DNA of 38,356 nucleotides, taken from positions 1 to 38,356 of the forward strand of contig NZ_JAFDVE010000005.1 in the NCBI RefSeq assembly GCF_016888005.1, given 5' to 3'. The stretch comes from Phycicoccus sp. CSK15P-2. GTDB lineage: Bacteria > Actinomycetota > Actinomycetes > Actinomycetales > Dermatophilaceae. The notes under the pieces are model-generated. The model was given only the letters and a program-made list of their open reading frames with translations. It was not told where the DNA came from and made no database searches. Shown here piece by piece: positions 26,730 through 38,331 of this stretch. Positions within the stretch are counted from its first letter, which is position 1, and each line of letters opens with the position of its first letter. A program made the position numbers and the translations under genes.

Positions 26730-27117
26730 CCGCAGTCGCAAGGCCCTCGAGCACGCCCGCACGGGCCACGCCGGCGGACGCCACTGCGCATCCCCCGGGG
26801 CGGTCTCTGCCACCGCTCCCGTCCGGCGTGGCCCGCGCGCCCCACCGGGGGCGTGACCGCGTCCTCCCGGCGTCGGCCCACCCCTTCGGACGCCGAGGCG
26901 GTGGCCGCCCACCTCTGCTCGGGCGTCCTGCCGCGGCGCCCGGAGGGGCCCACGTGGAGAAGGACGAGCCCGCCGTCCCCCTGATACCCCGGCGGGGAAA
27001 GTTCTGGATCCGGACGTATCACCGTCGCCTCCGGCGGCTCCTGTTCAGCGTCGACGAACGTCACTACGCTGAGGCGCCACCGTCTCGGCCGACCCGCCTC
27101 TCATCCAGGAGCAGCCC
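26730..27117. other. Non-coding region before the protease-sigma operon
   Basis: I see no supported gene in these 388 bases. An open frame at 26828-27121 has no ribosome binding site and an arginine/proline-rich composition typical of chance frames. TGTTCA (27042-27047) and TACGCT (27065-27070), 17 bases apart, could be the operon promoter, giving a leader of about 40 bases before ATG 27118. Confidence 0.4.
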
Positions 27118-28692
27118 ATGAGCGTCACCGGCCCGGAGCAAGCGTCCAACGGCGACGGGCCCGTCGGTGACCGACCACCGGCGCCGGTGTTCGGCATTCC
27201 GGCATCGGCCCTCGAACGGTTCGATGCCGTGGTCCTGGACCCCACGACTGCGGAGCGCAACGGCGACCAACCGGCTCCGCGCCCGGTGGCGTACGTCCGC
27301 ACGCGTCTCCTGGTCCCGGGTCTCACCGACGCACAGCTCGCGGATGCCGTCGCCGCCCTGGAACGGCTCGGCGAGCAGCTGCAGTTCACCCCTCGCGTCC
27401 TGGCGAGCGCGGTCCGTGACCTGGCCGTCGAGCTCGGGTACGACGACCGGCTGGGAGCCTCCACCCACAGTGCGGTGGAGCTCGTGCCCCTCGACGAACG
27501 CACCGGCCCACCGCTCGACGCGTGGACGGTTCTCCAACGGGCCCGGCGCGAGCTCGGCGAGAAGGTGGCCGGATGGGGTCTCGACCATGTCCTCATGAGC
27601 GCGGGCACCCTCGACGGGGTCGGGTACATGGGTGGCGTCGGCTACATGGGTGGCGTCGGGTACATGGGCGGCGTCGGGTACATGGGCGGCGTCGGGTCGC
27701 CCGGCACCGCCTCCGGCAGGGCACCCGTGGCCCTGAGTGCCGAGCCGCCACGACGCAGCGCCGAACGGTCACCGGTCGTCGCCGTGCTCGACACCGGTCT
27801 CGGCAAGCACCCCTGGTTCGACGGGTCACCCCTCGTCGAGCGGGACCCTCGGATCGACGGTGTCCCGATCGGCCTGCGCTTCCCACCGGCGGACGACCCG
27901 GAGGGCTCCGGTGTCACGGTCGACCTCGTGAACGGCAGTCTCGACGCCCTCGCGGGCCACGGGACCTTCGTGGCCGGTGTCATCCGCCAGCACTGTCCGG
28001 ACGCCCGGCTGGTCGTCGTCCCTGTCATGTACGGAGACGGGGCTGCCGAGGAGCACGACGTCATCGAGGCGCTCAATGCTCTCGCGTTGTACCACTGGTC
28101 GGCCTTGGACGGCCGGACCGACGACCCTCCCCTCGACGTCGTCAACCTCTCTCTCGGGTACTACCACGAGACTCCGGCCGCCGTGCAGAACGAGACGGCG
28201 CTCCTCCACATCCTGCGCGCACTCGCGGACGACGGCGTCGCGGTCGTCGCGGCGGCCGGCAACGGAGCCACGACCGAGTACTTCTGGCCTGCCGCCCTCA
28301 CCTCGGAACCCCAGCCCGCTGTCCCCGTGACCAGCGTCGGCGCCACCAACCCCGGCGACACCTCCGTCGCGGTGTTCTCCAACACGGGCAGCTGGGTGAC
28401 CCGCTACGAGCCCGGCGTCGCGGTGGTCAGCACCATGCCGGTCACCCTCGACGGCTCCTCACGCGGGGCTGTCGCCGTGGCGGCCCGAGGCGGCAGCCCG
28501 GCCCGCAGCACCGCCGACCCCGACCGGTACGTCACCGGCTTCGGCATGTGGAGCGGTACCTCGTTCGCCTCCCCCGTGTGCGTCGGACGTATCACTGCCG
28601 CGCTCGCCGCACACAAGACCCCGGCCGACCGGGAGTCCCGGGTCGAGCAGGCACGAGAGGCGCTCAACACCGCCCTCGGAGGGACGTCGTGA
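27118..28692 (+). CDS. Cytoplasmic subtilisin-like (S8) protease with GVGYMG repeats
   Basis: A 524-aa serine protease with the full subtilase triad: D225 in VVAVLDTGLG, H281 in GHGTFVAG, and S482 in GTSFASP. The oxyanion-hole Asn lies in AAAGNGA. There is no signal peptide, so it should act inside the cell. The N-terminal ~160 residues form an extra domain (RTRLLVPGLTDAQLADAVAA and a helical part) followed by four GVGYMG units (about 167-193), which could be a flexible or cleavable joint. AGGAG lies six bases before the ATG. Its stop overlaps the sigma-factor start (TGATG). It is the first of four tightly linked genes ending with a CHAT protease. Confidence 0.9.
   Translation: MSVTGPEQASNGDGPVGDRPPAPVFGIPASALERFDAVVLDPTTAERNGDQPAPRPVAYVRTRLLVPGLTDAQLADAVAALERLGEQLQFTPRVLASAVRDLAVELGYDDRLGASTHSAVELVPLDERTGPPLDAWTVLQRARRELGEKVAGWGLDHVLMSAGTLDGVGYMGGVGYMGGVGYMGGVGYMGGVGSPGTASGRAPVALSAEPPRRSAERSPVVAVLDTGLGKHPWFDGSPLVERDPRIDGVPIGLRFPPADDPEGSGVTVDLVNGSLDALAGHGTFVAGVIRQHCPDARLVVVPVMYGDGAAEEHDVIEALNALALYHWSALDGRTDDPPLDVVNLSLGYYHETPAAVQNETALLHILRALADDGVAVVAAAGNGATTEYFWPAALTSEPQPAVPVTSVGATNPGDTSVAVFSNTGSWVTRYEPGVAVVSTMPVTLDGSSRGAVAVAARGGSPARSTADPDRYVTGFGMWSGTSFASPVCVGRITAALAAHKTPADRESRVEQAREALNTALGGTS
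27616..27696 (+). repeat. 18-bp tandem repeat encoding GVGYMG
   Basis: Four 18-bp units (27616-27633, 27634-27651, 27652-27669, 27670-27687) and a 9-bp partial unit encode repeated GVGYMG. Units differ by one to three bases. They link the N-terminal domain to the protease domain. Confidence 0.9.
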
Positions 28693-29288
28693 TGCAGACA
28701 GGGGCAGGGTCCGAGAGCCTCGCAGTCCGGGCGGCCGACGCCTTCAGAGCCTTCCGGGACGGCGACCCGTCCGGGATGTCCACGCTGGTGGACGACGTCA
28801 CGCCCCTGCTCTGGTCGATCGCCCGGCAGCAAGGCGTCAGCCGGCAAGGCGCGGAGGACGTCGTCCAGAACGCCTGGCTCAAGCTCGTCGAGCACGCGGC
28901 GTCCATCGCAGATCCGCAGTCGGTGCTCAAGTGGCTCATCACCACCACGAAACGGGACGCGTGGACGCTCGGCGCCCGGTCCCGCCGCGAGGAGCCCGGC
29001 GCCTCGGAGGACATCCGAGAGCGAGAACCGGAGAACACGGCCCCTTCACCGGAGGCCGTCGTCCTCGCCGCCGAAGCGGGCTCGGTCGTGTGGACCCATT
29101 TCGCGGCGCTTCCCCAGAGGTGCCAGACCCTGTTGCGCGCCATCGCTTTCGCGGACCGCCCCGACTACGCCCACGTGGCCGAGGCCCTCGGGATGCCCGT
29201 CGGCTCGATCGGGCCCACCCGCGGACGCTGTCTCGCCAAGCTCCGCGCCTCGCTCACGGCCGACCCTCGATGGGAGCTCTCCACATGA
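28692..29288 (+). CDS. ECF-type RNA polymerase sigma factor
   Basis: A 198-aa alternative sigma factor. Region 2 (about 20-90) shows PLLWSIARQQGVSRQGAEDVVQNAWLKL and then WLITTTKRDAW. Region 4 (about 130-190) shows LPQRCQTLLRAIAF...YAHVAEALGMPVGSIGPTRGRCLAKLR. There is no region 3 or 1.1, as in ECF factors. GGAGGG lies eight bases before ATG 28692. GTG 28689 is an alternative. Start and stop overlap with the protease gene before and the small gene after. No classical zinc anti-sigma gene adjoins it. The next gene or the two proteases may control its activity, which is inference. Confidence 0.9.
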   Translation: MQTGAGSESLAVRAADAFRAFRDGDPSGMSTLVDDVTPLLWSIARQQGVSRQGAEDVVQNAWLKLVEHAASIADPQSVLKWLITTTKRDAWTLGARSRREEPGASEDIREREPENTAPSPEAVVLAAEAGSVVWTHFAALPQRCQTLLRAIAFADRPDYAHVAEALGMPVGSIGPTRGRCLAKLRASLTADPRWELST

Positions 29289-29785
29289 CCCCCACGCCCG
29301 AGCACGAGTTCCGGCTCGCCGCCGAGCCCCTGGACGACCTGGACGCGGCCGTCCTCGCGGAGCTGCGGGGCCTCCACTCCGACGCCGACCCCCTGCCCGG
29401 CGACCTGCTGGACCGCATCAAGTTCACGATGAGCGTGGCGCATCTCGAGGCACAGGTCGCGGAGATCGTCAGCGAGTCCGATCTCGCTCCGGTCCGTGGG
29501 ACGGACTACGACCGAGCGGACACGGTGACCTTCGCCCGGGACGGCCTCAGTGTCATGGTGACGATCGAGCACGGTGAGTCCCCTCGCGCAGACGTGGCCG
29601 GCTGGGTCAGCGAGAGCGACGTCGAGGTCGAGCTGCGCGAACGGGGAAGGACCCGGACGACGAGCACCGACGATGACGGACGGTTCACGTTCACGGGAGT
29701 CGAGCGAGGGCTGGCCAGCTTCGTCCTCCGACGACGCTCGGAGCCGGACGCTCCGCCGATCATCACGCCGGCGATCGAGCTGTAG
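29285..29785 (+). CDS. Small protein with helical N-terminus and Ig-like C-terminus
   Basis: A 166-aa soluble protein. Residues 10-65 look helical and acidic (LDDLDAAVLAELRGL, DLLDRIKFTMSVAHLEAQVAEIV). Residues 75-160 look like a beta sandwich of the carboxypeptidase-regulatory/Ig type (VEVELRERGRTRTTSTDDDG, then FTFTGVERG). It has no membrane segment and no HxxxCxxC anti-sigma motif. Its start overlaps the sigma-factor stop (ATGA), so the two are made together. By position it could hold the sigma factor inactive or be a protease substrate. This is inference; I know of no firm function for such proteins. Confidence 0.75.
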   Translation: MTPTPEHEFRLAAEPLDDLDAAVLAELRGLHSDADPLPGDLLDRIKFTMSVAHLEAQVAEIVSESDLAPVRGTDYDRADTVTFARDGLSVMVTIEHGESPRADVAGWVSESDVEVELRERGRTRTTSTDDDGRFTFTGVERGLASFVLRRRSEPDAPPIITPAIEL

Positions 29786-32342
29786 GGGCCCCGACATCGA
29801 GGACGACGAGCTGCTCGTCCACGCGCAGCGGCTGCTCGCAACCGCCCGGCAGGACAACGAGGCCGGGCGGTTCGACTCCGCGGCATCCAGTCTCGACACC
29901 GCTCTCTCCCTGCTCGCCCCCCGGACGGACCGCGCGGCCATGTGGCTTCGCACTCGGGTGCTTGTCACGCGATCGTGGTCCGAGCTCGAGCGGAGGGGTA
30001 CCGAGCCTGCCCTGGCGATGTTGCACACGGCCAGGGACGCCGCTGCGGATCTCGGCGACCCGCTGCTGCTCGCCCTCACCTGGATCCAGGAGGGGACGGT
30101 ACTGGGCCGGGTCGGGGACTGGCGCGCGTGCGTGTCCGCGCTCGAGCATGCGGCGGACGGGGAGCACCTCCTCGACCCCTCGCAGACCTGGGCCCTCTGG
30201 CTCAACCTGGGACAAGCGGAGCTGGGTCTGGGCGACACTGCGGCCGCGGCGGCCCACGCCGAGGCCGCGATCGCCGTCGCCGCTGAGCACGGGCTCGTCG
30301 ACCTGGAGTTCAAGGCCCGCCACAACCGGGCCGTCGTCGCATTCGTGGACGGCGACGTCCCCCGGGCCCTGCTCCTCATGAAGGAGGCGGACCAGATGGA
30401 CGCGGCGGTCTCCCGCGACCGCGCGCGGCTCGACCACGCCGAGGTGCTCATCGCCGCCGGCCTCGTCCGGCAGGCCCGCGCGACCCTCGAGGACGCCCTC
30501 GTCACGGCCCGGGCGGAGGGGCACCGGCTCGAGACCGGGGAGATCGGCCTGCGGCTGGCCCGCTGCGACGTCCTGGAGGACGACCTCGACGGCGCGCGAC
30601 GGCACCTGCGCTCCGCCGTAGCGGCGTGGCGGACCCGGCAGGCGGATGCTCTGCTCCGGGAGGCCGAGCTCGTCCGCGCAACGGTCGACGTGGCGGACGG
30701 CTCCGACCTGCCCGCGGTCGTCACGGCTCTCGCCCGGCGGAACACGGGGATGCTCGGGCCCGCGCCCTCGGACCGGGTCGCCGTGCGGATCGAAGCCGAG
30801 GCCCGGGCCCTGCTCGGCGACCCGGACGGCGCCGAGCACCGGCTCGACAGGCTCGCGGGCCACCCGACCGGGTCGCTGGCCGCCGGCCTGCACGAGGCAC
30901 TCGTGCGGGCTCGCATCGCGGCAGCCCGTGGGCGGTGCGACGAGGCGGGGCGGCAGGCGACCACCGGCAGCCGGCTGTTGGCTGCCCATCAGCACCAGTC
31001 GTCGAGTCTCGACGTCCGGGCCGCCATGGCCCTGCACGGCCGCGCCTTGGCCAGGTTCGACGTCGAGCGGGCGCTCGAGGGCGGCGACGCTGCGGACCTG
31101 CTCAGCACGGTCGAGCGCTGGCGGGCGATCTCGCACCGGGTCGCTCCCGTCGCGGCCACGAGCGACCCCGAGCTCTCGGCCCTGACCCGCGAGCTGCGTC
31201 GGCTGCGCCGGCTGTCCACCGACGGCGGAGCGGACGTCGTCCGAGAGCTCGCGCCCCGGATCGCGGCCCTGGAGGCGGACGTCGCCGAGCGCGAGTGGAG
31301 CCTCGCCGACCAGGTGTCCAGCCGTCCCCAGGCCGGAGCGGTGGAACCCGACGAGGCCGGCGCGGCCCTGGCCGACCGGCAGGCGACGGCGGTCGAGCTC
31401 GTCGAGTCCGGTGGCGTGCTGCGTGCGGTGGTCGTCTCCGAGCGGGGTACGACGAGCCACGAGCTAGGACCGCTCGTGGACGTCGTCAGCCTCGTCGTCC
31501 GGCTCCGCCGCGACCTACGGGCACGGGCGTCGCTCGCTCCGCACTCACCCATGCTGCGGACGCTCGCACGCGCCACCCGGTCCTCGCTCGGGGCGGTCGA
31601 TGCCGTCTTCGGACGGCTGTGGGGTGGCGGTGCACGCGTGATCGTCATCCCGTCGGCGTCGTTGTCCGCCATGCCGTGGAGACTCCTCCCCTCGCTCGCC
31701 GGCTCACCGGTCACGGTGGCGCCGAGCCTGACCCGCTGGGTACGCGGCCCACAGCGCGTCGGGGCCGAGCAGCCGCAGGAGCCGCTCCGGGCCCTCTACG
31801 GGCCGGGGCTCGCCCACCCGGCACCCGAGGTCGCAGCCGTCCGCGAAGCCTGGGGCGTCTCGACGACGACCCGGGCCGCAGCGAGCAGCGACGACGTCCT
31901 CGCCGCCCTCGGCGCGGCCCGCGTGGTCCATCTCGCCGCGCACGGGACCCACGAGGCGCAGAGCCCCTTGTTCTCGTCGGTGCGGATGGCCGACGGGCCG
32001 GTGTTCGCGCACGAGTTCCCCCGGCCCGTCGTGGCCGAGCACGTCGCGCTCGCCGCCTGCGACGTCGGCCAGTTCTCCAGCCGCCCGGGGGACGAGCCGC
32101 TCGGGCTGGCGACGGCTCTGCTGTCGCTCGGGACGCACAGTGTCCTGGCCGCGGTGGCACCGGTGGCGGACGACCTCGCGGCCGAGACGATGGTGCACTA
32201 CCACCGGCAGCTCGCACGGGGCGCGGACGCCGCCGAGGCCTGGTGCGCGACCGTCGCGGAGCAACCGGACGCCGGGGCGTTCTGCGTCTACGGCTCGGAG
32301 TGGAGCGCCGGCGGGACCGAGGCCGCCGAGACCATCAGATGA
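29673..32342 (+). CDS. TPR-CHAT caspase-like protease
   Basis: A large protein whose N-terminal two thirds are helical TPR-like repeats (DNEAGRFDSAASSLDTALSL, WALWLNLGQAELGLGDTAAA and others) and whose C-terminal third is a CHAT peptidase. The catalytic dyad is visible: His in VVHLAAHGTHEA and Cys in ALAACDVGQF, residues 757 and 796 from ATG 29673. CHAT proteases are clan CD cysteine peptidases related to caspases and separase. The start is problematic. ATG 29673 is the nearest canonical codon, but it lies 113 bases inside the previous gene. The recognisable protein begins near 29796 (ATC), and CTG 29811 has GAGGA seven bases before it. The end overlaps convergent cysE by 8 bp. Confidence 0.85.
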   Translation: MTDGSRSRESSEGWPASSSDDARSRTLRRSSRRRSSCRGPDIEDDELLVHAQRLLATARQDNEAGRFDSAASSLDTALSLLAPRTDRAAMWLRTRVLVTRSWSELERRGTEPALAMLHTARDAAADLGDPLLLALTWIQEGTVLGRVGDWRACVSALEHAADGEHLLDPSQTWALWLNLGQAELGLGDTAAAAAHAEAAIAVAAEHGLVDLEFKARHNRAVVAFVDGDVPRALLLMKEADQMDAAVSRDRARLDHAEVLIAAGLVRQARATLEDALVTARAEGHRLETGEIGLRLARCDVLEDDLDGARRHLRSAVAAWRTRQADALLREAELVRATVDVADGSDLPAVVTALARRNTGMLGPAPSDRVAVRIEAEARALLGDPDGAEHRLDRLAGHPTGSLAAGLHEALVRARIAAARGRCDEAGRQATTGSRLLAAHQHQSSSLDVRAAMALHGRALARFDVERALEGGDAADLLSTVERWRAISHRVAPVAATSDPELSALTRELRRLRRLSTDGGADVVRELAPRIAALEADVAEREWSLADQVSSRPQAGAVEPDEAGAALADRQATAVELVESGGVLRAVVVSERGTTSHELGPLVDVVSLVVRLRRDLRARASLAPHSPMLRTLARATRSSLGAVDAVFGRLWGGGARVIVIPSASLSAMPWRLLPSLAGSPVTVAPSLTRWVRGPQRVGAEQPQEPLRALYGPGLAHPAPEVAAVREAWGVSTTTRAAASSDDVLAALGAARVVHLAAHGTHEAQSPLFSSVRMADGPVFAHEFPRPVVAEHVALAACDVGQFSSRPGDEPLGLATALLSLGTHSVLAAVAPVADDLAAETMVHYHRQLARGADAAEAWCATVAEQPDAGAFCVYGSEWSAGGTEAAETIR

Positions 32343-34170: not shown

Positions 34171-37100
34171 ATGCCTGCCGTGCCCGCATCCGCTCCGGCC
34201 AGCGACATCCCGTTCTCCGACTTCGGCGGCACCACACCGCTGCAGGTCGTCGCGGTCGTCGTGTCGCTGCTCGTCATGGTCGTCGGCGTCGCGCTGTTCG
34301 CCCGGCAGATCGGCCGCTTCGTCGGGCAGTACCGGCTCGGCCAGCCCGACGCCACCCGCACGAACGACCCCGGCGCACGCACCTGGACCCTCACCCGCGA
34401 GTTCCTCGGCCACACCCGGATGAGCCGCCTGCCGGTCGTCGCCGCAGCACACTGGGTCACCGCGCTCGCGTTCATCATCCTGTTCACGACGCTGGTCAAC
34501 GCCTTCCTCCAGCTGTTCCGGCCGGACGCCCGGCTGCCCCTCATCGGGCACTTCCCGCCGTTCGAGTGGGTCGTCGAGCTCTTCTCGTGGGCCGGGCTCG
34601 TCGGGATCGTCGTCCTCATGGCCATCCGCCAGAAGGAGCACCCGCGGCGGGCGCGCGGCGAGGGCGGCCGCTTCTCGCGGTTCTTCGGCTCCACGTTCTG
34701 GCAGGCGTACTACGTCGAGCTCACCATCCTCGGCGTCACCGTCTGCATTCTCCTGCTCCGCGGGCTCGAGGCGGCGATCGCCGAGCGCGCCGAGCCCGGC
34801 ACCTCGCTCGCGCTGCACTTCCCGCTCACCGGCTGGATGGCCGGCTGGTGGGGCGGCGCGTCGCTCGCCACCATCGCCTCCGTCGTCTACATCGTCGCGA
34901 CGGTCAAGATCCTCATCTCGTTCGCCTGGATGATCACCATCTCGCTGCAGCCGACGATGGGCGTCGCCTGGCACCGCTTCCTCGCCTTCCCCAACATCTG
35001 GTTCAAGCGGGAGTCCTCGGGCCGCACGGCGCTCGGCGCCGCCAAGCCGATGACGGTCGGAGGCCGGCCGTTCGACCTCGACGCCATGGAGGAGATGGAA
35101 GAGGGCGACGTCCTCGGCGTCGGTTCGGTCGAGGACTTCACGTGGAAGGGCCTGCTCGACTTCTCGACGTGCACCGAGTGCGGCCGCTGCCAGAGCCAGT
35201 GCCCCGCCTGGAACACCGAGAAGCCGCTGTCGCCGAAGCTCCTCATGATGACGCTGCGCGACCACGCGGACGCCAAGGCTCCCTACCTGCGGGCGCTCGC
35301 GGACGCCGACGGCGACACCGAGAAGGCGATGGCCACGGTGACCTCCGCCGCGCAGGCCACGCCCACGGACGGCATCGAGCCCACCGCTGCCGTCGACGTC
35401 GTCGACTGGCCGTCGATGACACTCGTCGGTGAGACCGGGTACGCCGCCGACTCCCCGCTGACGGCGTACAACCCGCACGGCCCGGACGCCGTCATCGACC
35501 AGGACGTCCTGTGGTCGTGCACGACGTGCGGCGCGTGCGTCGAGCAGTGCCCGGTCGACATCGAGCACGTCGACCACATCATCGACATGCGGCGGTACTC
35601 GACGCTCATCGAGTCGGCCTTCCCGAACGAGCTCGGCGGGCTGTTCAAGAACATGGAGACCAAGGGCAACCCGTGGGGGATGGGTGCCCGGGCACGGCTG
35701 GACTGGGCCAAGGACCTGCCCTTCCCGGTCAAGGTGCTGGGGCAGGACGTCGAGAAGGCGTCCGACGTGGACTGGCTGTTCTGGGTCGGGTGCGCCGGCG
35801 CCTACGAGGACCGTGCGAAGAAGACGACCCGTGCGGTGGCCGAGCTGCTCGACGCCGCCGGGGTCTCGTTCGCGGTGCTCGGCGACGGCGAGACGTGCAC
35901 CGGCGACTCCGCGCGGCGGGCCGGCAACGAGCTGCTCTTCCAGACGCTCGCACAGCAGAACGTCGACACCTTCGGCGAGTTCGGGGTGACCAAGGTCGTC
36001 GTCACGTGCGCACACTGCTTCAACACGATCAAGAACGAGTACCCGCAGCTGGGCGGCTCGTACGAGGTGGTCCACCACACCCAGCTGCTCAACCGGCTCG
36101 TCCGCGAGAAGAGGCTGACGCCGGTGGCCCGGCCGGACGCGACGCCGGCGATGTCGTCGGTGAAGAACGTCGCGTCCACCGCCGCGTCGGTGACGTACCA
36201 CGACCCGTGCTACCTCGGGCGGCACAACGGGGTGTACGCGCCGCCGCGCGAGCTCATCGGGGCCCTGCCGGGGGTTGAGCTGCGCGAGATGCCGCGCTCG
36301 GCCGAGAAGTCGTTCTGCTGCGGCGCCGGCGGTGCGCGCATGTGGATGGAGGAGAAGCTCGGGACGCGGATCAACACGAACCGCACCGACGAGGCCCTGG
36401 CCACCGGCGCGGGTCGCATCGCCATCGGCTGCCCGTTCTGCCGCGTGATGATGTCGGACGGGCTCACGGCGAAGCAGGCCGAGGGTGTCGGCGAGGACGT
36501 CGAGGTCGTCGATGTGGCCCAGATGCTGCTCGCGGCCGTCAGGCGGGGCGAGGACGCACCGGAGGAGGAGGCGGCCGACGCCGCCGTGGCAGGGGGCCGG
36601 GTCGCCGAGGCGGAGGACGAGGGGACCGCGACCGGGGCGGCCGCTGCCGTCGGCGCCGCTGGAGCTGCGGGCTCCACGGAAGCTGCCGGCGCCACGGAAA
36701 CTTCCGAAACCACGGAAGCTGCCGACACCGCGGGAGCTTCCGACACCACGGGAGCTTCCGACACCACGGAAGCTGCCGGCGCCGCGGGCACGGAACACCC
36801 GGATGAGACGACCCGTGAAGCCCGGGCTGCATCTGCCCCCACCGACGAAACCCAGGCTTCATCCGTCGCCCCATCCGATGACGATGCCGACGCCGACCCC
36901 TGGGACGAGCCTGCTGCCCGCACCGAGACCCCCTCGGACCGCGCACAGGAAGCGGCGGATGCTCCCGCACCGGCCACCGATGACGACGCCGACCCCTGGG
37001 ACGAGCCCGCCACCGCAGCACCCGCAGCAGCCAAGCCGGCGACCGAGCAGGCAGAGCCCGAGGAGCAGCCGAAGGCCACGGCAGCAACGCCCGAGACCAC

Positions 37101-38256
37101 TGACGACGCCGACCCCTGGGACGAGCCTGCTGCCCGCACCGAGACCCCCTCGGACCGCGCACAGGAAGCGGCGGATGCTCCCCCGCCGGCCACCGATGAC
37201 GACGACCCATGGGACGAGCCGGCGGCCGCGGCTGCTCCTGCCAAGGAACCGGCATCTGCCGACCCTGCCGATGCGCCGGAGCCGTCCGGGGACGACCCGG
37301 ACCCGTGGGACGAGCCCGCCGCGACGGACGACCCGGTCGCCGGGACCTCCCAGGGTGAGCCCACGCCGGAGAAGGCGACAGCCGATGCAGCGGCGTCCGC
37401 CGACGACGTCGACCCGTGGGACGAGCCCGCCGTGGACGGCGCATCCGACACTGCGAAGGATGACGCAGCGGCCGACACGGCTGACAAGTCGTCGACTCCG
37501 TCAGCCGCTCAGGACGCTGCCACCGACGACGATGTCGACCCGTGGGACGACCCCGCCGCCGGCACCGCGGGAGCCGCCGACTCCGCCATCACGGAAGTCC
37601 CGGATGAAACGACCCATGAAGCCCGGGACGCATCTGCCCCCACCGACGAAACCCAGGCTTCATCAGTCGCCCCATCCGACGACGAGGACGACGTCGACCC
37701 GTGGGACGAGCCCGCCGTGGACGGCTCCACCGCCGAGCAGCCGACTGACCCGGAGTCGGAGCCGTCCGGGGACGCATCCGACACCGACGAATCCGACACC
37801 GCAGACGAGTCGACCGGTGAGTCGGCTGCTCAGCCGGATGACGAGGCCGCGCCGAAGTCATCGACATCCGACGACACGGCAGCCGCCGACGCTCCCTCGA
37901 CAGGCGCTTCGTCCGGGTCGTTCGGCGACGACGCGTCGCTCGTCGACGAGCCGGACCCTTGGGACGAGCCGGCCGACGCCGCTCCCCGGCCGACCACCGA
38001 GCCCCACACAGAGCCTGCCGAGGACGCAGATGCGCCGTTCGGGGCCGCGGCTGGCGCGACCACCGAACACCCGGACGAGACGACCCGTGAAGCCCGGGCC
38101 ACATCTGCCCACACCGACGAAACCCAGGCTTCATCAGTCGCCCCATCCGACGACGAGACCGCGGCGGCGAGCGACGAGAGCACCGCCGAGCGCGCCGAGG
38201 CGGGGTCGTTCGGTGGCGACGCGAGCCTCATCGACGAGCCCGACCCCTGGGACTGA
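34171..38256 (+). CDS. EtfD-like membrane iron-sulfur reductase with long acidic tail
   Basis: A 1361-aa protein. Residues 1-265 carry about five to six membrane helices of the heme-b/NarI-like type. Two ferredoxin-type 4Fe-4S motifs follow (CTECGRCQSQCP near 334-345 and CTTCGACVEQCP near 450-461). A heterodisulfide-reductase-like region has cysteine-rich CCG motifs (VTCAHCFN, DPCYLGRH, FCCGAGG). This core (about 790 residues) matches the actinobacterial EtfD family, which passes electrons from electron-transfer flavoprotein (fatty-acid oxidation) to menaquinone. The remaining ~570 residues are Ala/Asp/Pro/Thr-rich, predicted disordered, with ten DPWD motifs and duplicated segments, far longer than usual. 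ATG 34171 is the first start before the helices. Confidence 0.87.
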   Translation: MPAVPASAPASDIPFSDFGGTTPLQVVAVVVSLLVMVVGVALFARQIGRFVGQYRLGQPDATRTNDPGARTWTLTREFLGHTRMSRLPVVAAAHWVTALAFIILFTTLVNAFLQLFRPDARLPLIGHFPPFEWVVELFSWAGLVGIVVLMAIRQKEHPRRARGEGGRFSRFFGSTFWQAYYVELTILGVTVCILLLRGLEAAIAERAEPGTSLALHFPLTGWMAGWWGGASLATIASVVYIVATVKILISFAWMITISLQPTMGVAWHRFLAFPNIWFKRESSGRTALGAAKPMTVGGRPFDLDAMEEMEEGDVLGVGSVEDFTWKGLLDFSTCTECGRCQSQCPAWNTEKPLSPKLLMMTLRDHADAKAPYLRALADADGDTEKAMATVTSAAQATPTDGIEPTAAVDVVDWPSMTLVGETGYAADSPLTAYNPHGPDAVIDQDVLWSCTTCGACVEQCPVDIEHVDHIIDMRRYSTLIESAFPNELGGLFKNMETKGNPWGMGARARLDWAKDLPFPVKVLGQDVEKASDVDWLFWVGCAGAYEDRAKKTTRAVAELLDAAGVSFAVLGDGETCTGDSARRAGNELLFQTLAQQNVDTFGEFGVTKVVVTCAHCFNTIKNEYPQLGGSYEVVHHTQLLNRLVREKRLTPVARPDATPAMSSVKNVASTAASVTYHDPCYLGRHNGVYAPPRELIGALPGVELREMPRSAEKSFCCGAGGARMWMEEKLGTRINTNRTDEALATGAGRIAIGCPFCRVMMSDGLTAKQAEGVGEDVEVVDVAQMLLAAVRRGEDAPEEEAADAAVAGGRVAEAEDEGTATGAAAAVGAAGAAGSTEAAGATETSETTEAADTAGASDTTGASDTTEAAGAAGTEHPDETTREARAASAPTDETQASSVAPSDDDADADPWDEPAARTETPSDRAQEAADAPAPATDDDADPWDEPATAAPAAAKPATEQAEPEEQPKATAATPETTDDADPWDEPAARTETPSDRAQEAADAPPPATDDDDPWDEPAAAAAPAKEPASADPADAPEPSGDDPDPWDEPAATDDPVAGTSQGEPTPEKATADAAASADDVDPWDEPAVDGASDTAKDDAAADTADKSSTPSAAQDAATDDDVDPWDDPAAGTAGAADSAITEVPDETTHEARDASAPTDETQASSVAPSDDEDDVDPWDEPAVDGSTAEQPTDPESEPSGDASDTDESDTADESTGESAAQPDDEAAPKSSTSDDTAAADAPSTGASSGSFGDDASLVDEPDPWDEPADAAPRPTTEPHTEPAEDADAPFGAAAGATTEHPDETTREARATSAHTDETQASSVAPSDDETAAASDESTAERAEAGSFGGDASLIDEPDPWD
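36673..36790 (+). repeat. 18-bp degenerate tandem repeats in the acidic tail
   Basis: Units related to GGAGCTTCCGACACCACG repeat about six times and encode hexapeptides such as TEAADT, AGASDT and TGASDT. They begin the repetitive tail of the EtfD-like protein. Confidence 0.7.
36793..38154 (+). repeat. Three dispersed 90-bp in-frame palindromic repeats
   Basis: Near-identical 90-bp copies lie at 36793-36882, 37594-37683 and 38065-38154, all in the same frame, encoding PDETTREAR...TDETQASSVAPSDD. Each contains the inverted pair GAAGCCCGGG / CCCAGGCTTC and flanking GGATGA / TCATC. A second repeat of about 98 bp starts at 36889 and 37105. Confidence 0.8.

Positions 38257-38273: not shown

Positions 38274-38331
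<58 letters not shown>

Follow-up and report, generated by a model that had tools for sequence, protein, structure and literature searches.

What do two proteases of different families, an ECF sigma factor and a small protein do together? The question is raised by a four-gene set on the forward strand of the window, which here means the whole 38,356-nucleotide stretch of Phycicoccus DNA analysed (contig C31 of a 3.9-Mb genome in 45 contigs). The initial annotation had proposed a CRISPR-independent circuit in which a protease cascade frees the sigma factor, for stress or phage defence. The four genes, with the small protein called REG, were:

27118–28692, forward strand: pro-subtilase (S8), 524 aa, triad D225/H281/S482, Pfam PF00082 (Peptidase_S8) at 6.5e-20, predicted intracellular.
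28692–29288, forward strand: ECF sigma factor, 198 aa, TIGR02937 at 7.6e-16 and Sigma70_r2 at 8e-8, TGATG overlap with the subtilase gene.
29285–29785, forward strand: REG, 166 aa, predicted soluble anti-sigma factor, ATGA overlap with the sigma gene.
29796–32342, forward strand: TPR-CHAT protease, 848 aa, Pfam CHAT at 1.3e-20, catalytic His at 31941–31943 and catalytic Cys at 32058–32060.

These coordinates (27118–32342) bore out the earlier description of four intact genes on one strand joined by TGATG and ATGA overlaps, and Pfam and NCBIfam agreed with the family labels given to the subtilase, the sigma factor and the CHAT protein. The sigma factor matched the ECF superfamily model TIGR02937 over residues 30–186 (58.2 bits; cut-off 42.9), the CHAT protein matched PF12770 (74.5 bits; cut-off 24), and REG had a sub-threshold match to CarboxypepD_reg alone (1.4e-4) in Pfam. 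Both active sites had been described as intact and were found to be invariant: the subtilase triad D225, H281 and S482 together with the oxyanion Asn N382 in 55 of 55 aligned sequences, and the CHAT dyad H719/C758 (numbered with residue 1 at 29787) in 36 of 36. The proteases had also been said to lack a signal peptide. Consistent with this, the window subtilase had no hydrophobic signal segment, and no clear membrane segment was present in the window proteins (best 19-residue Kyte-Doolittle averages of 1.47, 1.50, 0.82 and 1.65), which look cytosolic. Among relatives, averages of at least 1.9 occurred in 19 of 94 CHAT, 1 of 90 subtilase, 1 of 127 REG and 0 of 120 sigma proteins. The nearest named relatives of REG belonged to Phycicoccus (phylum Actinomycetota) and were 75–82% identical. 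Three features lay beyond the initial annotation: a hexapeptide array (27616–27696), a candidate promoter (27016–27042) and the lack of an ATG, GTG or TTG start in the CHAT gene.

A single-sequence REG query of 248 genomes of the same order found 42 positive genomes spread over 18 of 85 genera. With a REG profile (E ≤ 0.001), 43 of 396 phylum genomes and 113 of 394 class genomes were positive. In total, 124 loci were fetched, with G023 left out: 40 of the 41 other order positives, 20 phylum matches, 60 class matches and four named Phycicoccus loci. REG was present in 123 of these, and 120 of the 123 had a sigma gene. Sigma, CHAT and subtilase genes lay within 8 kb in 85 loci; sigma and REG stood with neither protease nearby in 25; sigma, REG and CHAT were found in nine; and the remaining four were without sigma or without CHAT. 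Because 27 of the 123 REG loci lay within 5 kb of a stretch end, some absent partners may be cut off. Gene order differed (32 loci with S8-SIG-REG-CHAT, 27 with SIG-REG-S8-CHAT, others with divergent arrangements) while gene content stayed constant, which argues for a functional unit. The window's CHAT protein was the sole Pfam CHAT family match in its genome; this, together with the recurrence of all four genes at 85 of 123 fetched REG loci, indicates that the set is not a chance assembly. The expectation of related clusters in other actinobacteria was thus borne out, and in the search for co-occurrence across actinobacterial genomes the lack of joint conservation that the initial annotation had named as evidence against the circuit did not appear.

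Within the order sample, the CHAT family (E ≤ 1e-30; genome lists compared by hand) occurred in 56 of 248 genomes: 41 of the 42 REG-positive genomes and 15 of the 206 REG-negative ones. The one REG-positive genome without CHAT (G202) was counted as positive despite a weak and doubtful REG match (1.8e-4), and its locus (L071) held no gene of the families. Some of the 15 REG-negative genomes with CHAT may carry a REG that has diverged beyond the reach of a single-sequence query, as in G004, which the profile did match. The subtilase propeptide domain was found in 38 order genomes, although the matches in G202 and G117 lay at the E limit. The other 36 had CHAT in every case (36/36) and REG in 33. 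The subtilase is not essential to the set: eight of the 41 order genomes with REG and CHAT gave no match to the propeptide profile.

A further CHAT search covered 28 genomes, namely 24 with a fetched REG locus lacking a CHAT match of at least 100 bits (some of these loci being short) and four others, of genus g346, whose loci were not fetched. The CHAT profile matched 27 of the 28 at E ≤ 1e-10 and 26 at above 370 bits; the remaining two were a 75%-complete genome without a CHAT match and a genome with a match of 46.5 bits. In G288, the best-but-one-genome CHAT match shared a contig with a second, weaker REG match. REG thus accompanies CHAT even where the two are unlinked, and the subtilase does so less strictly. 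Two loci (L073, L075) each held two subtilase-CHAT pairs, two or three REG copies and a single sigma gene, copy numbers from which it follows that REG, CHAT and subtilase go together.

The AlphaFold2 model of REG, built from 110 sequences (pLDDT 86.4, pTM 0.56), contained helices at residues 5–13, 18–34 and 41–64 and a seven-strand beta-sandwich at 79–150. The linker between these parts (residues 63–75) had pLDDT below 50 and was taken as disordered. It contained one candidate site:

29495–29497, forward strand: REG Arg71 codon, predicted site of cleavage within the linker, Arg in 110 of 110 sequences.

Around this arginine, position −1 (P2) was Val in 82 of 110 sequences and position +1 (P1′) was Gly, Ser, Ala or Thr in 109 of 110. 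An invariant residue within a disordered linker looks like a processing site, and Arg is preferred by several clan CD proteases; Arg71 could also have a structural role. Comparison with the PDB by sequence or structure gave REG no significant match: the model had no fold match at E ≤ 1e-3, and no anti-sigma factor was named among the 50 matches listed. In a check against the class I anti-sigma fold, the model offered three N-terminal helices and no significant structure match. The role predicted for REG, that of a soluble anti-sigma factor, has two indirect grounds: its linkage to sigma in 120 of 123 loci and the correlated divergence of its helical half with SIG_2 and SIG_4.

Correlated divergence was measured on 54 dereplicated loci with all four genes (from 79), using ranked pairwise distances and partial correlations among eight segments, where SIG_2 was sigma residues 20–100 and SIG_4 was sigma from residue 125. 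Loci without one of the four proteins or with a CHAT of 700 aa or less were dropped, as was L103 from the runs on 54 loci; L073 and L075 (several copies) were dropped from the coevolution runs, and L096, which looks like the same genome as L032, was dropped throughout. The partial correlations were 0.27 for REG_N-SIG_2, 0.21 for REG_N-SIG_4 and 0.30 for REG_C-CHATcat, each reached in 0 of 300 permutations. Low pairs were REG_N-REG_C (0.09) and REG_N-CHATcat (0.07), and the within-protein controls gave 0.22 for SIG_2-SIG_4, 0.40 for TPR-CHAT and 0.29 for propeptide-protease. REG_C-S8cat stood at 0.15 (0.22 in an earlier run of the same design, in which the other values were similar). The six contrasts tested held in 95–100% of 400 subsamples of 70% each. 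Pairs without a proposed contact also scored (SIG_4-S8cat 0.20, SIG_2-S8cat 0.18, SIG_2-CHATcat 0.16); related sequences in distance correlations are not independent, and correlated divergence is not contact. Coevolution of the helical half with sigma and of the sandwich with the CHAT catalytic domain is the pattern expected of an anti-sigma factor cut by CHAT, and it fits a REG that bridges sigma through its helical half and CHAT through its sandwich half.

The subtilase adds a second protease to this pairing. Its AlphaFold2 model (pTM 0.88) comprised an N-terminal domain and a catalytic domain, with a repeat array between them:

27223–27600, forward strand: subtilase N-terminal domain, residues 36–161, propeptide-like order, last strand LDHV with invariant H157.
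27616–27696, forward strand: tandem array of GVGYMG, 4.5 copies, residues 167–193, joining the propeptide to the catalytic domain.

The strand and helix order of the N-terminal domain was propeptide-like, and D99, L120 and H122 of its alignment were invariant (48/48). As in pro-subtilisins, a propeptide-like domain precedes a catalytic domain, and the best Foldseek match was unautoprocessed pro-subtilisin E (3whi; 514 columns, TM 0.44 by query and 0.63 by target, rmsd 5.8). A test for likeness to I9 gave no Pfam I9 match, and a PDB sequence search with the domain profile returned no subtilisin. Unlike pro-subtilisins, the window protein had no hydrophobic signal segment, and an array followed the last strand of the propeptide in 49 of 90 relatives.

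The array region was disordered (pLDDT about 30–39 over residues 171–200). The survey of arrays covered 90 subtilase ORFs (at least 150 bits, L096 excluded); the 49 that carried one had mostly a period of 6 and three to nine copies. The exception was L097, with two copies of an 11-residue unit, which was dropped from the array runs. Fetched members of family f21 (L088–L090, L146) had no array. Altogether, the 49 arrays contained 39 distinct units, among them GVGYMG, GYGDGV, PYTQPF, NPFTRT, PFIETN and HPLYDG. Between adjacent copies, 1276 codon comparisons gave 448 synonymous differences, 3 nonsynonymous differences and 825 identical codons, set against an expected synonymous share of 0.247 for random base changes; the segments were picked by amino-acid self-match, so that the nonsynonymous shortage is partly built in and the synonymous divergence is not. 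A synonymous divergence of 35% marks the copies as old and held alike, and it rules out recent slippage as their source. An origin as a copied target site was rejected: within the 49 array loci, the exact unit was confined to the subtilase ORF. The coding pattern of the unit was found nowhere else in the window's genome. Relative to the His of LDHV, arrays began exactly six residues later in 22 of 49 cases, 5–7 residues later in 25 and 10–22 residues later in the other 24. The sixth residue is, we assume from the subtilisin processing site, the first residue past the cut.

Divergence of the array unit was correlated with that of each protein part over 42 loci, raw and then partial given sigma and REG_C. 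The best correlate was the TPR part of CHAT (raw 0.68, partial 0.59), followed by the CHAT catalytic domain (0.57, 0.42) and the catalytic domain of the subtilase (0.52, 0.33). Lower values were obtained for REG_N (0.50, 0.31), REG_C (0.42, 0.22), sigma (0.38, 0.12) and the propeptide (0.30, 0.09). By segment, given the other proteins, the four TPR segments reached 0.28–0.45, CHAT 691–851 reached 0.39 and the subtilase catalytic segments 0.01–0.13. The corresponding values were 0.19–0.37, 0.30 and 0.03–0.17 in 28 dereplicated loci, and 0.05–0.35, 0.22 and 0.01–0.15 in the 30 loci outside the window's family. Reading of the array by its own protease was a weak candidate, given the 0.01–0.13 of the subtilase catalytic segments, though their domain had 0.33 given sigma and REG_C. 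Because the unit tracks TPR and CHAT above its own protease domain, less strongly outside the window's family, the array seems to be recognised by a partner protein. It may be a lineage-specific molecular address, a hexapeptide word read by the TPR domain of the partner CHAT, with word and reader changing together so that a private two-protease cascade frees sigma; we regard this as a real possibility that we would nevertheless bet against.

The same array enters a stricter cascade, in which CHAT cuts the array and so releases the subtilase from its propeptide, and REG is then destroyed by the active subtilase instead of by CHAT. Such an order of events would suit an array placed at the propeptide-protease junction and beginning, in 25 of 49 cases, 5–7 residues past the LDHV His, as well as unit divergence that tracks the TPR domain and CHAT 691–851 and the REG_C correlation with the subtilase catalytic domain. 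We consider it unlikely, if well short of negligible. Eight of the 41 genomes with REG and CHAT have no propeptide match, yet the linker Arg was kept in 39 of 39 sequences of the first REG alignment, seven of those eight genomes included, and REG_C tracks CHAT (0.30) above the subtilase (0.15). Direct cleavage of REG by CHAT is the reading carried forward here.

Ahead of the subtilase gene lies a candidate promoter:

27016–27042, forward strand: GTATCA-N16-CTCCT, candidate promoter for the sigma factor, 75 nt ahead of the subtilase ATG.

Of 120 loci, 28, belonging to several families, had the element (G)TATC-N16-18-YTCCT at a distance of 50–197 nt before their first gene. In the 42 REG-positive genomes GTATCA-N15-17-CTCCT was counted 115 times vs 11 for the reversed pattern, and in the 206 REG-negative genomes 146 times vs 163. 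Downstream genes were inspected for part of the sites in 25 genomes (stretches L161–L230, duplicates included): many sites lay just upstream of an ORF, and others were without a clear gene or inside one. Candidate targets in the window's genome were a vWA protein of 595 aa and a less convincing ORF of 217 aa. In G224, G122 and G235 the motif lay 52–53 nt from an orthologous protein of 264–267 aa. This candidate was set aside: of 59 family genomes, four carried it (one at E 8.8e-4), and the window's genome did not. The stretch around a further copy of the 264-aa family in G979 (L238) contained no motif. The motif also stood at a divergent pair of CHAT proteins in G150 and at a calpain-family protease in G209. 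The candidate targets vary among genomes.

Targets of this kind bring up another arrangement, in which REG assists sigma as an adaptor or sensor, and sigma directs the production of the proteases, which would act as end effectors in, say, controlled self-digestion. The proteases often stand in the sigma operon, candidate targets elsewhere encode CHAT and calpain-like proteases, and the fold of REG is not recognisable as that of an anti-sigma factor. Three findings point instead to CHAT acting on REG, namely the arginine kept in every linker, the correlation of REG_C with CHAT and the almost obligate company of CHAT with REG, and we judge the adaptor arrangement improbable.

Expression of the CHAT gene has a peculiarity of its own:

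29796–29798, forward strand: probable AUC start codon of TPR-CHAT, an ATC behind TAGGGG.

No ATG, GTG or TTG was present within 45 codons upstream of the conserved start in the window. Among 91 CHAT genes, eight had none from the in-frame stop to the profile start and 13 had none within 45 codons; the same counts in 281 S8, sigma and REG genes were 0 and 2. An ATC after a purine-rich, Shine-Dalgarno-like stretch was found in the window and nine of its relatives in the same family, and also in three loci from a different family. A downstream canonical start is an alternative in L032, L033, L035, L092 and L095; the start differs in L036, L037 and L039, where it is perhaps ACG; and L087 and L153 had no clear start. 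Translation of TPR-CHAT thus probably starts at AUC. The AUU of infC is a precedent for a rare start, and conservation of an AUC start in a protease gene would be uncommon in itself.

Taken together, these features suggest a cytoplasmic, CRISPR-independent switch that releases sigma by proteolysis. The N-terminal helices of REG would bind regions 2 and 4 of the ECF sigma factor and so restrain it, and the REG beta-sandwich would be gripped by the CHAT catalytic domain. In response to a signal at the TPR domain, CHAT would cleave the linker of REG behind Arg71; loss or degradation of the helical half would follow, and the freed sigma would transcribe its own operon from GTATCA-N15-17-CTCCT, in a positive loop, along with a small variable gene set. 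Where present, the pro-subtilase would be an amplifier kept inactive by its propeptide; TPR-CHAT may read the hexapeptide array, so that an activated CHAT would trigger or recruit the subtilase as well. With its rare AUC start, CHAT may be kept scarce. The binding and cleavage steps and the signal are inferred, and for the full statement, array-linked subtilase and AUC start included, our confidence is tentative and falls a little short of an even balance.

Of the initial proposal, the joint conservation of the families and the independence from CRISPR RAMP proteins were supported, and the divergence pattern fits a REG that bridges sigma and CHAT; the phage-defence part was not supported. The pairing of TPR-CHAT with an ECF sigma factor, which resembles Csx29 and CASP-sigma in the available part of PMC10028731, brings to mind a defence module in which immunity is linked to sigma, like that of type III-E CRISPR loci; a further point in its favour is one candidate target that matched PADLOC SAVED_CHAT (2.4e-13). 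In a PADLOC scan of the four proteins, the subtilase, REG and CHAT had no match and the sigma factor matched an effector model weakly (E 0.002), and the locus in the window's family sat among shared chromosomal genes; a defence island found no support in these results. CRISPR membership was rejected as well: the RAMP family PF03787 was absent from the window's genome and from 40 of the 41 genomes with REG and CHAT, and present in one. The Csx29 model NF041237 gave 16.9 bits on CHAT (cut-off 300), the TPR plus CHAT architecture being common to both. A defence role is therefore quite improbable, and the sigma-release switch is compared below with known systems.

Type III-E CASP/Craspase, as presented in the available part of PMC10028731, shares with the set a TPR-CHAT protease, an inhibitor that is cut in a flexible loop, an ECF-type sigma factor and sigma motifs in its own locus. 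It differs in that Craspase TPR-CHAT cuts Csx30 at non-conserved sites (available part of PMC11106740), whereas REG is a 166-aa protein with an invariant linker Arg; the four-gene set also adds a pro-subtilase with a hexapeptide array, and RAMP is absent in 40 of 41 genomes. EACC2-caspase neighbourhoods (DUF1822) likewise bring together a caspase-fold protease, a TPR protein and an ECF sigma factor, but the TPR protein and the caspase are separate there and the caspase is fused to EACC2; the available part of PMC8195603 mentions trypsin-like peptidases and no subtilase, REG or array. In the RseA system a membrane anti-sigma factor is cut by two proteases, DegS and RseP, whereas the window proteins have no clear membrane segment and the proteases are CHAT and an intracellular subtilase. 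Neither CHAT nor sigma appears as a term in PMC7159879 (0 occurrences of each), a DNA search of plasmid records gave two short partial matches alone, and the four-gene set was undescribed among the titles and abstract starts of the literature matches listed.

That the array is a multi-copy precursor from which the proteases release a lineage-specific hexapeptide signal is very improbable: near-identical copies within each protein, 39 units in 49 arrays and 448 synonymous vs 3 nonsynonymous differences would suit it, but the window proteins have the look of cytosolic ones, the unit correlates best with the TPR domain, the top 40 recurring neighbour clusters listed were mostly lineage-specific, and a neighbour resembling an ABC-transporter ATPase, a common protein type, occurred in 15 loci.

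A conserved, CRISPR-independent sigma-release circuit is thus the best reading and is partly supported, and phage defence is unsupported. Its strongest new features are the paired array, the arginine that never varies in REG and the almost constant presence of CHAT where REG occurs. The 39 units at one place in one protein family, near-identical inside any one protein and apparently changing along with a TPR domain, are a rare natural experiment that could make peptide recognition by TPR proteins decodable. If true, a repeated peptide code that evolves and insulates a protease cascade would be a new kind of specificity device. If the circuit is as proposed, the protease-freed sigma logic of a CRISPR system would be a widespread circuit of the Actinomycetota that operates without CRISPR, which would suggest where such circuits originated.

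The subtilase of the window carried an array of tandem hexapeptide units (27616-27696), and the location of this array within the protein was conserved among array-bearing relatives. Altogether, 49 subtilase arrays contained 39 different units; copies within any one protein were near-identical. Two DNA stretches (L073 and L075) each contained two subtilase-CHAT pairs, two or three copies of the predicted anti-sigma factor gene and a single sigma factor gene. Array units differed between the two subtilases of L073, and likewise between those of L075.

AUC at 29796-29798 was the probable start codon of the CHAT gene; such a probable AUC start occurred in two families. Close to the window end, a run of 47 G (38283-38329) was perhaps an assembly artefact. 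The ORF at 36663-38256, which resembled an Fe-S oxidoreductase, ended in a long, acidic C-terminal tail with repeated DPWDEPA-like motifs.

Genes outside the system were also preceded by the candidate promoter motif (GTATCA-N15-17-CTCCT):

L208:319-2514 and L209:440-2908, divergent CHAT-domain proteins (genome G150), two back-to-back motif copies
L192:516-2300, 595-aa vWA protein (window's own genome, contig C5), motif match upstream
L196:1719-2510 and L211:499-1299, 264-267-aa protein family, gene 52-53 nt downstream of the motif in each of three genomes

One protein of the divergent pair additionally carried a CBM9 domain and a sub-cut-off HetF-like match. The 264-267-aa family was found in 4 of the 59 family genomes searched. 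The vWA protein gene of the window's own genome is a candidate target gene.
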